A stretch of DNA of 64,000 nucleotides from Calorimonas adulescens. Its GTDB lineage: Bacteria > Bacillota > Thermoanaerobacteria > Thermoanaerobacterales > UBA4877. The stretch is from the NCBI RefSeq assembly GCF_008274215.1, contig NZ_VTPS01000002.1, positions 62,001 through 126,000 on the forward strand, in the 5' to 3' direction. The stretch's first letter is position 1, and each line of letters opens with the position of its first letter. The translations under genes and the position numbers were made by a program. The notes below the pieces were generated by a model that was given only the letters and a program-made list of their open reading frames with translations, did no database searches and was not told the origin of the DNA. Positions 23,154-27,881 of this stretch are shown piece after piece.

Positions 23154-24467
23154 TTAAAATTCAATAGTCTTCAATATATTTCCTCTGCTGTCCAGGAATC
23201 TAATTTCTTTGACTTCCCCGGCAGGTTTTATAACCTTTATATCGTAAGGATAGGTTATAACCTGAGTAACCATATCTCCAGCCTTTGGAGAGCGTTCCGT
23301 AACAAATACGCTTATGCTTCCATCTTCCGCGCTCCTGGCACCATAGATGCTAATACTATAACCTCCTGTAGGTTTTTCACCTGCAGCAGCCAGCAGATAA
23401 TATGTGTCTCCATCTTTAAATGCTTTATACCCACCTTCTTCTTTAATGTCTTCCAGTTCATTTATTACACCATCCGGCACATCCTCCAAATCAACCGCCT
23501 CCAATTTTAATTCTCCATATGAGGTCGTATCTTCATTCGCGGCTGCAAAAATTATCTGCGATTTAAATACAACCAGCGATACATATTCCCCAATTTTTAT
23601 ATCCTTTATATCATTGTATTCCTCACCATCGAAAAATTGTGCATCCGTCCGATAGCTTAATCTTATCTCACGCATGTTTTTTGATGCAATTGAATCAGGT
23701 AGTTCTTGGTTTTCAACATCTATGATAAGGGTATTATTATTTTTATCGATACCTGTAACCCTGCCAGAAATATAAACACATTTGTCTGTTACTGATGGTC
23801 TTTTAGCCGGCAATGGTATGACATCACCCAACCTGCTGAATAACCTATCCAGTATAACGCTCATTTCTGCCCTTGTTAGCGGCTTTTCAGGTACAAACTT
23901 TCCATCAATTCCATTTATAATATTTTCAATATATGCAATGTAGATATATGGGATATCATCAGCATTGATTTCGTTAATATCTGAAAATATGTCCCTCAAG
24001 TCATACTCATCATCCACATAACCTTCAAGGCCCAGTGCTCTCACAACCAGTTTGGCGGCATCAACACGTTTTACGGGAGCGTTCAGGCTAACACCCTGAA
24101 CTTCTTCTAAAGTGAGCAACCCATTTTCATAAGCAACAGCTACATACCCTAACAGGTCCTTGTCTATCTTGATCCCCTTTAGTTCTGATGGTATCTCATA
24201 GTCATTTAAGGCCTCATCCTCCAGTCCCAGGGCCCTTACAAACATTATAAGCGCCTCTCCCCACGTCACCGGCTTTTGTGGGTTAAAAAAACCATTTCCG
24301 GTACCTTTCAATATACCCTTATCACTCATCCTGCTTACAGCTTCCTCCGCCCACTCGTAGCCTTTCATATCCTTAAACGGCTCTCCTTTCGGGGCAGCAT
24401 AGGCCGGCATTATCAACGTGGTAATCAGCATAAAGGCAGACAATAATAATGGAAGTGCCCTCTTCAT
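23154..24467 (-). CDS. S-layer homology domain surface protein
   Basis: Exported cell-surface protein of 437 residues. It has a signal peptide (MKRALPLLLSAFMLITTLIM, cleavage near AYAA), then three SLH repeats at about 30-90, 95-150 and 155-215 that should anchor it to pyruvylated wall polysaccharide. A beta-rich C-terminal half with no family I recognise follows. GGGAGGG lies before the ATG. It is a single gene with its own terminator. Confidence 0.88.
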   Translation of the reverse strand: MKRALPLLLSAFMLITTLIMPAYAAPKGEPFKDMKGYEWAEEAVSRMSDKGILKGTGNGFFNPQKPVTWGEALIMFVRALGLEDEALNDYEIPSELKGIKIDKDLLGYVAVAYENGLLTLEEVQGVSLNAPVKRVDAAKLVVRALGLEGYVDDEYDLRDIFSDINEINADDIPYIYIAYIENIINGIDGKFVPEKPLTRAEMSVILDRLFSRLGDVIPLPAKRPSVTDKCVYISGRVTGIDKNNNTLIIDVENQELPDSIASKNMREIRLSYRTDAQFFDGEEYNDIKDIKIGEYVSLVVFKSQIIFAAANEDTTSYGELKLEAVDLEDVPDGVINELEDIKEEGGYKAFKDGDTYYLLAAAGEKPTGGYSISIYGARSAEDGSISVFVTERSPKAGDMVTQVITYPYDIKVIKPAGEVKEIRFLDSRGNILKTIEF

Positions 24468-24670: not shown

Positions 24671-25873
24671 TTAATCCTGTTTATTTAGCACTTTTTCAGC
24701 AATTCTTTCAGCAAACTCATCTATTTTATCAAGGTCTGCTTGAGAGGGTGCGAAATTTATTTTTACTCCCGGCTCTACCACATCCATTTTACGGGATTTT
24801 AACATATCCTCCATTATCTTTAACGCCTCACCACTCCACCCATAAGAGCCAAAAGCTGCACTAACTTTTCCCTTGGCTTTTATTGGATTCATGTTAACCA
24901 GGACATTCCATATAGGTTCTACAACATCGGCAGCAATCGTTGGCGACCCAACCACAATACCTGCTGACTCCTGTAAAATCTTATCTATATCATCCTTTGA
25001 CGCATGTGTTGCATCAATGGTATGGGCACTTAAGCCTTTTTCTCTCAGCTTACAGGCTAATCTTTCGGCCGCCTTTTTTGTGTTGCCGTAAGCGGAGACA
25101 TAATATACAGTCACCTTTTTACTGTCATATGTAGGTTCTTTCGCCCATTTTTCGTACAAAGCAACAACTGCAAAGGGGTCTTTCCTTAATATGGGGCCGT
25201 GTCCGGGGCAGATCACGTTAAAATCAATGTTAAGTTTTCTTAACTTGTCAATAGCCTCTAAAACCTTTGACTTGAAGGGACTTATTATGGAGTTAAAATA
25301 GACCCAAACAGCTTCTGTAAAATCTCCTATCTCGTCATCGAATATGCTGTCCCCTTCCGGACAATAATGGCACCCAAAAGCATCACATGTAAATAAGATC
25401 TTATCATATTCATCATAGGTCATCATGGTGTCGGGCCAGTGCAGAAAAGGTGTATATATAAACTTAAGCTTCCTATCGCCAAGATCCAGCTCGCTTCCAT
25501 CCATTGCCGCTATAGATGGAAAGTCTTTGTTCAAAACAGCTTTCATGTTCGTCAGTGCTGCCCTGGTTGCTACTACCTTGGCATTAGGTGCAATTTCCAG
25601 CAGTTTGCCCACGGCCCATGAATGGTCTGGTTCAGAGTGGTCAAGAACAATATACTCAATCTTCGCTGGATCAATTAATGACTTAAGGTTCGTTAGGAAC
25701 TCCTCTTGGAATCCCTCTTTAGACGCCTCTACTATTGTTGGTTTTTCAGCCATAATCAAATAGGAATTATACGTTGTACCCCATGGTGTGTCAAACACTA
25801 TATCAAACTTTCTGAGGTTTGGATCTTTGACCCCTATGGAATAAACTCCTTCTTTCACCTTTCGCACAGCCAT
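24671..25873 (-). CDS. FprA-type flavodiiron protein (O2/NO reductase)
   Basis: Cytoplasmic detoxifying enzyme that reduces O2 to water or NO to N2O with electrons from rubredoxin or a coenzyme. The 400 residues have a metallo-beta-lactamase-like domain with the di-iron ligands in DHSEPDHSW, FLHWPDT, CDAFGC and CPGHGP, then a flavodoxin domain from about residue 252 (VYYVSAYGNTKKAAERL, FMN binding). No rubredoxin domain is fused. AAGGAGG precedes the ATG. Typical of oxygen-sensitive anaerobes. Confidence 0.94.
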   Translation of the reverse strand: MAVRKVKEGVYSIGVKDPNLRKFDIVFDTPWGTTYNSYLIMAEKPTIVEASKEGFQEEFLTNLKSLIDPAKIEYIVLDHSEPDHSWAVGKLLEIAPNAKVVATRAALTNMKAVLNKDFPSIAAMDGSELDLGDRKLKFIYTPFLHWPDTMMTYDEYDKILFTCDAFGCHYCPEGDSIFDDEIGDFTEAVWVYFNSIISPFKSKVLEAIDKLRKLNIDFNVICPGHGPILRKDPFAVVALYEKWAKEPTYDSKKVTVYYVSAYGNTKKAAERLACKLREKGLSAHTIDATHASKDDIDKILQESAGIVVGSPTIAADVVEPIWNVLVNMNPIKAKGKVSAAFGSYGWSGEALKIMEDMLKSRKMDVVEPGVKINFAPSQADLDKIDEFAERIAEKVLNKQD

Positions 25874-26404: not shown

Positions 26405-26436
26405 AGAAAAGCTGTAACCTGCCTATGAGCTTTTCT
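26405..26436 (-). terminator. Hairpin over the csrA stop codon
   Basis: AGAAAAGCT and AGCTTTTCT form a 9-base-pair stem around a 14-base loop that contains the csrA TAG. The U-tract after it is weak, so termination efficiency is uncertain. Confidence 0.55.
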
Positions 26437-26656
26437 TTTCAAACAATTCTTTCAACCTGACCATGCTGTCTTTTTGTGTATTCGCTGCTGTTATATTTTC
26501 ATTCTTTACCTCCAGAAGCTCCGAACGTACTATCTCTATATTCCTGGGGGCTAAAATGCCTATACTGACCTTATCTTCCTCCACTTCCATTATAGTAACC
26601 TCGATATTATCCCCTATCTTTATGCTCTGTCCCTTCTTCCTTGTTAGCACCAGCAT
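26423..26656 (-). CDS. csrA: Carbon storage regulator CsrA
   Basis: Dimeric RNA-binding protein that blocks translation, classically of flagellin (hag) mRNA in Gram-positive bacteria. The 77 residues begin MLVLTRKKGQSIKIGDNIEV, with APRNIEIVRSEL in the RNA-binding strand 5 region. It starts one base after the fliW fusion ends, the standard fliW-csrA order. FliW binds CsrA and releases it when flagellin is secreted. No hag gene is in the window. Confidence 0.96.
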   Translation of the reverse strand: MLVLTRKKGQSIKIGDNIEVTIMEVEEDKVSIGILAPRNIEIVRSELLEVKNENITAANTQKDSMVRLKELFEKKSS

Positions 26657-26657
26657 A

Positions 26658-27782
26658 TCACCTTATCTCCTTTACTATCTCTATACCGTTCATGCTGAGA
26701 TGATATAAAAACATAGGGTTTATAAGGTCAGCATAATGGTCTATACTATCAAATGTATCCACACAGTTATACGGTATTATTATATCTACAGGTGTATCAC
26801 TGCTGTTTAAGAACATCTTTAGAGTCATAGCAGTCTGATACACACAAAGGTCCGTGCAGTTGCCAACTATTATAAAGCACTTAGTCCCCCTTTTAATTAA
26901 TTCATGGACATATGTGTTGAAGTCTGGATTAGTAAAGGCATTGAGGGAATTCTTAGCAAAAATCCTGGCGTTTTGTGAGAAACCCTTAAGGCTGTCCACT
27001 ATCATTGATTCCTGAGTACCTGCCATGGCATGGGGAGGAAATGCATTGAACTCCATAGAGCCCTCATGATGGGAATCGTTTAGAAATGCCACATCTTTTA
27101 CTCCCTCTGCTACAAGCCTCTTTGTAAGTGTAAAAATCGGCATTTCAAGATTATGTATACGCGGGCTGGAAAGCGGCCCTATCCTTGAAAATCCGTTTAT
27201 CATATCCACTATCAACAGAGAGATGTTCGATGTCGCAGGATATCTCTTTTTTAACTCATTGAATTCAATTGGTTTTAACCCATACACAAACCTGTATAGT
27301 GAGCGTATAGAGTTCTCACAGCTCCTATAATACTCTTCTTCCATGCTGTAACCCCTAAGGTCTTCTTTTAAATAATATCTTATAGGATAGTCACCCTCGT
27401 CTAGAATGATTTGAGCTGCTATCTTTTTATCCCTGTTGACTACTATGGGAGCCTTCAGATTGCATGATATCTCCTCAATATTTTCAGGTATTACCACTAT
27501 ATTATATATCTGCATAGATGAAATATCATCTATTGACAGTTTCCTCATCTCTTCCACAGGTATCTGCGGTTTGTACCATGACACAACATCTGTACCGTCA
27601 ACCATCACAAATGCCAGGCCAGGGTTTTCCACCGATTGAAGCCATATGAAAGGCTCGCTGCCATCTTTCCCAACAAGTATGTATTTCTTTAACCCGTCAA
27701 AACCCAAAATTTCATTTTGAAAGTATATTATTTCATTTTCGTCATACTCTATTGGACCAAAATTGCTTGTTTCTAAAAGCAT
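26658..27782 (-). CDS. fliW: FliW flagellar assembly factor fused to an isochorismatase-like hydrolase
   Basis: Residues 1 to about 141 are FliW (FGPIEYDENEIIYFQ, FLGF-like EILGF, APIVVN), which antagonises CsrA and binds flagellin. Residues about 148-374 are a cysteine hydrolase of the isochorismatase/nicotinamidase superfamily: LLIVDMINGF (Asp193), the metal set NDSHH plus FPPH (Asp236, His238, His251), IFAKNS (Lys277) and NCTDLCV (Cys313), so the catalytic triad and PncA-type metal ligands all seem intact. FliW alone is normally about 150 residues. The frame is continuous. An internal ATG at 27344, seven bases after AGGGG, could also give the hydrolase alone. Confidence 0.88.
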   Translation of the reverse strand: MLLETSNFGPIEYDENEIIYFQNEILGFDGLKKYILVGKDGSEPFIWLQSVENPGLAFVMVDGTDVVSWYKPQIPVEEMRKLSIDDISSMQIYNIVVIPENIEEISCNLKAPIVVNRDKKIAAQIILDEGDYPIRYYLKEDLRGYSMEEEYYRSCENSIRSLYRFVYGLKPIEFNELKKRYPATSNISLLIVDMINGFSRIGPLSSPRIHNLEMPIFTLTKRLVAEGVKDVAFLNDSHHEGSMEFNAFPPHAMAGTQESMIVDSLKGFSQNARIFAKNSLNAFTNPDFNTYVHELIKRGTKCFIIVGNCTDLCVYQTAMTLKMFLNSSDTPVDIIIPYNCVDTFDSIDHYADLINPMFLYHLSMNGIEIVKEIR

Positions 27783-27859
27783 AAAAGTTCCTCCTTAAAA
27801 AATACAACATCTATTGTTATTTTATCATCATATGCAGGAATTGTGAACATATAAAAATA

Positions 27860-27881
27860 AAGGACATCATTTGATGTCCTT
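27860..27881 (-). terminator. Terminator after flgL
   Basis: AAGGACATC and GATGTCCTT form a stem around a 4-base loop, followed on the minus strand by TTATTTTT. It separates flgL from fliW-csrA, which may therefore be partly independent. Confidence 0.8.

Follow-up and report, generated by a model that had tools for sequence, protein, structure and literature searches.

A FliW protein joined to a nicotinamidase-like hydrolase in Calorimonas adulescens and a related genome

The window, as we call the whole stretch of 64,000 nucleotides of C. adulescens analyzed here, carries an ordinary flagellar cluster, with flgM, flgN, flgK and flgL upstream of fliW and csrA immediately downstream. As a rule FliW, which balances flagellin production, is a small regulator made of one domain. 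Here, a single open reading frame, which starts with ATG and shows no internal stop in the ORF listing of the window, matches both the Pfam FliW family (PF02623, residues 19–138, E = 1.5e-35, 122.1 bits versus a curated cut-off of 25) and the Isochorismatase family (PF00857, residues 189–321, E = 2.3e-12, also above its curated cut-off). These matches bear out the sequence-only reading, which had proposed that FliW continues in frame into an isochorismatase/nicotinamidase-like hydrolase and had named a search of the C-terminal half against Pfam isochorismatase as a check. In alignments, the hydrolase part includes the N-terminal helix of its stand-alone homologues. Further along the cluster, downstream of csrA, a gene for a protein with S-layer homology and a C-terminal PrcB domain (23154–24467) adjoins one for an ODP/flavodoxin-type protein (24671–25873).

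Table 1. Positions of the fusion gene, its parts and the neighbouring signals in the window
Feature	Position	Strand	Basis
Hairpin resembling a terminator, between flgL and the fusion gene; shared with G001	27860..27881	-	
Vegetative-type promoter-like site TTCACA-17-TAAAAT, identical in G001	27819..27847	-	
Likely Shine-Dalgarno sequence (AAGGAGG) of the fusion gene	27790..27796	-	
fliW-nicotinamidase fusion gene (putative activity), 374 aa	26658..27782	-	ORF, Pfam and sister-genome copy
FliW domain, residues 1–138	27369..27782	-	PF02623 and fold match to 5dmd/5dmb
Hinge, residues 139–150, where model confidence is minimal	27333..27368	-	pLDDT
Internal ATG, not conserved (ATA in G001)	27342..27344	-	Comparison with G001
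Nicotinamidase-like cysteine hydrolase, residues 147–374	26661..27344	-	PF00857, homologue alignment, invariant residues
AAGGAG, likely Shine-Dalgarno of csrA, within the hydrolase tail	26667..26672	-	
csrA, 77 aa, starting one base past the fusion stop codon; V50 and N54 kept	26423..26656	-	

The one other genome of the family that we examined, G001, is a separately assembled MAG (Thermoanaerobacteraceae bacterium isolate Yes75-04, locus L041), and it encodes the same fusion, of equal length, 79% identical and free of stops. Neither genome shows a frameshift or a stop codon between the halves, the result that had been named beforehand as speaking against a fusion. Since the fusion occurs in two separate assemblies, a sequencing error is very unlikely, and we rejected an assembly or frameshift artefact on the strength of the independently assembled copy. 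Nonsynonymous divergence between the two genes amounts to a dN of 0.135 for the FliW half and 0.102 for the hydrolase half, values that are informative by themselves and not as dN/dS because synonymous sites are saturated between the two fusion genomes. The low dN in both halves, set against this saturation, indicates that both are under purifying selection.

The hydrolase half carries the catalytic Asp-Lys-Cys residues (D193, K277 and C313) as well as the Asp-His-His metal site of PncA (D236, H238 and H251), at exactly the positions that had been proposed for them. All six are invariant in an alignment of 60 sequences of relatives, where position numbers correspond to those of the fusion minus 146. 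We compared the surroundings of 76 related loci in Clostridia, Chloroflexota, Armatimonadota and other groups; as they were taken from the best 80 among 449 confirmed hits, they stand for the nearest relatives and do not sample the family at random. A nicotinate phosphoribosyltransferase gene is present at 45 of them (at most 300 bp away in 41, and downstream in the same orientation in 44), and a Nudix gene, always upstream, at 22 (at most 300 bp away in 21); the single Nudix gene checked matched the NtrR repressor model. Where recurrent neighbours point to a clear pathway, that pathway is NAD salvage, and members of the clade to which the fusion belongs (L058, L067, L075) share this neighbourhood. 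In the window genome the nicotinate phosphoribosyltransferase gene is located on another contig (C7), and the linkage is known from relatives. PncA structures were returned by both profile and fold comparisons. Together with the invariant residues and the NAD-salvage neighbours, these matches led us to infer nicotinamide as the substrate, and the residues, the gene context of relatives and the predicted fold indicate that the hydrolase is most likely a PncA-type nicotinamidase. Of the two enzyme types considered at the outset, NAD- or isochorismate-related, the first is retained; the window cluster shows no siderophore or phenazine gene context of the kind associated with isochorismatases of the EntB/PhzD type, and a nicotinamidase is very probably the better assignment.

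When compared to the PncA structures of B. subtilis (5ZN8), S. mutans (3S2S) and S. pneumoniae (3O90–3O94), the fusion hydrolase shares the fold, the Asp-Lys-Cys residues, the Asp-His-His ligands and, as seen in its relatives, the NAD-salvage gene context. It is, however, just 22–24% identical to them by structural alignment, sits behind FliW and not free, and is encoded away from the phosphoribosyltransferase gene of its own genome. The stand-alone hydrolases of Thermoanaerobacter and Thermoanaerobacterium (for example L004, L015 and L020) are 41–45% identical over the whole domain, N-terminal helix included, but are encoded by a separate gene distant from fliW and carry, in the C-terminal half, two short insertions that are missing in the fusion.

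In a tree of the hydrolases, the two fusion sequences cluster, at moderate support (91/64), with stand-alone genes from the neighbouring family inside a clade of 20 sequences (100/100), and their branch measures 1.19 changes per site versus 0.39 for the stand-alone relatives. This long branch hints at faster change around the fusion, and could reflect an altered substrate or a new role. An isochorismatase-superfamily amidase acting on a substrate other than nicotinamide would be in line with it, as well as with the presence of an N-carbamoylsarcosine-amidase-related protein among the best single-sequence PDB matches and with the curated NCBIfam nicotinamidase models, which serve as an aid to naming and of which none matched the window domain over its cut-off, weak matches being seen in relatives only. 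We nevertheless regard such an enzyme as improbable in view of the strong NAD-salvage neighbourhood of the relatives, the PncA metal site, the rank of PncA folds among the best matches and the lack of any other nicotinamidase candidate in the window genome. The same long branch would fit a hydrolase half that is the decayed remnant of an accidental gene fusion, a reading that is hardly credible and that we rejected: the six active-site residues are kept, the hydrolase half is under strong constraint, with a dN below that of the FliW half at saturated synonymous sites, and it is the only isochorismatase-family protein of the genome.

The fusion is also the sole detectable FliW of the window genome. 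Neither the window genome nor G001 gave a match to NadA, to PF04095 (the NAPRTase family, which includes NAMPT) or to PnuC, but both encode a nicotinate phosphoribosyltransferase of the QRPTase type (490 bits versus a cut-off of 243). This combination suggests that the fused domain probably carries nicotinamide salvage in both organisms; as far as these tests show, it is the sole route from nicotinamide to NAD. Among relatives, NadA, and with it de novo NAD synthesis, is kept alongside a stand-alone hydrolase in G010 (L121) and G011 (L122), and NadA is missing in three further members of their family (G009, G014 and G023), as in both fusion genomes.

Structure prediction of the full-length protein generated two confident folds, one FliW-like and one PncA-like, with a mean pLDDT of 93.8 and a pTM of 0.67; pLDDT values are above 90 except around residues 141–160, where they range from 66 to 86 (minimum at 141–150). 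The predicted FliW half matches the 5dmd and 5dmb chains with a target-normalised TM-score of 0.90, and is predicted to fold like the CsrA-bound FliW of 5DMB. The first 138 residues of the fusion resemble Bacillus/Geobacillus FliW (5DMB, 5DMD) in both sequence and fold, and the likeness extends to the flgL-fliW-csrA gene order, the residues of CsrA that contact FliW and a flagellin leader whose hairpin is CsrA-like. The fusion differs from these proteins in its additional C-terminal enzyme domain of 228 residues and in having its own putative vegetative-type promoter behind a terminator-like hairpin.

In Campylobacter CsrA, V51 and N55 are required for FliW binding (PMC7829508), and V50 and N54 of the window CsrA have the same four-residue spacing. 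The flagellin gene lies elsewhere in both fusion genomes, and its leaders are near-identical, with a hairpin exposing GGA (GGCATGGATGCC) and an AAGGAGG motif (GGAGG Shine-Dalgarno); a sigma-D-like promoter was recognised in the leader by eye, and a similar hairpin occurs in the flagellin leaders of two relatives from the neighbouring family. Since the FliW-contact residues of CsrA and the CsrA-like leader hairpin are intact, FliW probably still works, and these sequence features suggest that the flagellin-FliW-CsrA partner switch is probably preserved as well. In the two relatives examined, the start of csrA overlaps the 3' end of fliW; in the fusion lineage, the hydrolase part lies between the FliW part and csrA. 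CsrA synthesis is translationally coupled to FliW in B. subtilis (PMC6529632); by analogy, such coupling would pass to the hydrolase end of the fusion. Relatives also carry an extra ORF between flgL and fliW (L037:6451-7008 and L038:5004-5561), YviE/DUF6470-like by appearance, which is absent from the window cluster.

A metabolic sensor, in which the substrate, product or turnover of the nicotinamidase alters FliW binding to CsrA or flagellin, or binding of CsrA or flagellin alters the enzyme, so that motility and the CsrA regulon follow NAD status, would agree with the persistence of the covalent link across two genera at 79% identity, with the functional appearance of both partners of the fusion, and with the start of csrA one base past the fusion stop. 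The pTM value and the low confidence of the hinge mean, however, that the domain-domain arrangement is not confident, and the fusion is known in two species only; we consider a sensor of this kind unlikely, and slightly more doubtful still that nicotinamide binding or turnover gates the hold of FliW on CsrA and thereby makes both flagellin synthesis and the CsrA regulon depend directly on NAD status. With two domains that are each modelled confidently, flanking a hinge and lacking a confident mutual placement, the prediction favours two jobs in one chain over an allosteric device.

The promoter-like and terminator-like sites upstream of the fusion gene are consensus matches, and since counts of promoter-like sites are near chance, their weight comes from conservation in the two genomes. 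Scans of two relatives showed no coding-strand terminator-like site directly ahead of fliW. If it acts as the consensus suggests, a promoter placed behind a terminator would make expression of the salvage enzyme independent of flagellar transcription.

An ATG within the frame, at 27344 and seven bases behind an AGGGG motif, had been taken to allow both full-length and hydrolase-only products. Both signals are present in the window, at the point where stand-alone homologues start in the alignment; G001 has ATA in place of the start codon and AAAAAT in place of AGGGG, and we therefore discarded the internal start as a conserved feature. With both signals missing from the second genome, the hydrolase-only product is not supported. 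The ATG is best read as a leftover or a chance occurrence. Two separate proteins, generated either by initiation at this site or by cleavage in the hinge and leaving the fused frame of little importance, would account for the position of AGGGG and the ATG and for the low model confidence of the hinge, but are very unlikely, given the G001 sequence and a hinge in which no cleavage motif is known.

Profile searches located the fusion in just the two family members among the matches listed for the class (37 genomes); in the neighbouring family (20 genomes, one of them fragmented) both genes are present but separate. In a sample of the phylum (398 genomes), where a true fusion is expected near the top of the profile ranking, the window gene and its G001 counterpart alone span the fusion profile among the matches listed. 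FliW alone was found in 276 of these 398 genomes, mostly in frames of about 140–190 residues among the matches listed. Six longer FliW frames (G174, G253, G329, G245, G377 and G281) were dismissed, being open frames extended upstream or frames with low-complexity tails; inspection by eye recognised no isochorismatase domain in them, and none aligns with the hydrolase part of the fusion profile. FliW proteins with long low-complexity or proline-rich C-terminal tails were also seen in other genomes of the phylum (L134:1004-1630, L137:683-1312). The fusion is limited to two genera of one family among the genomes searched, and the possibility raised earlier that all relatives have two separate genes applies to the neighbouring family but not to the window's own. 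A literature search of partial coverage returned no paper on a FliW-isochorismatase fusion or on a fusion of CsrA or flagellar proteins with a nicotinamidase; within the collections searched and the open literature the architecture is thus new, each of its parts being known already. Judging from the tree, with its moderate grouping support, the simplest account of its origin would be vertical descent of the hydrolase gene followed by relocation into the fliW/csrA junction.

The data describe a genuine, lineage-restricted union of two known families, in which the metabolic identity of the second half is well supported. We consider it reasonably probable that the gene encodes a single bifunctional protein whose two jobs, as a FliW regulator and as a nicotinamidase salvage enzyme, are largely independent. 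The FliW half would take its customary part in the partner switch of flagellin, FliW and CsrA; the hydrolase would deamidate nicotinamide to nicotinate for nicotinate phosphoribosyltransferase, supporting NAD salvage where NadA is not detectable. Most likely, a stand-alone nicotinamidase gene of the same order moved into the fliW/csrA junction; the vegetative-type promoter behind the terminator may allow the salvage enzyme to be made independently of the flagellar operon, the putative ribosome site of csrA now falls within the hydrolase tail, and the halves, placed on a short hinge, probably work largely independently.

A regulatory link between the enzyme and FliW would be notable if real, and the fusion lineage provides a test case from nature for the question of whether flagellar and CsrA control can be wired to NAD metabolism or whether fusions of this sort arise from gene placement alone. 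Because the only apparent nicotinamide-salvage enzyme is hung on FliW, deletion of 'fliW' in this family would probably produce a vitamin B3 phenotype as well, a possible source of error in studies of motility.
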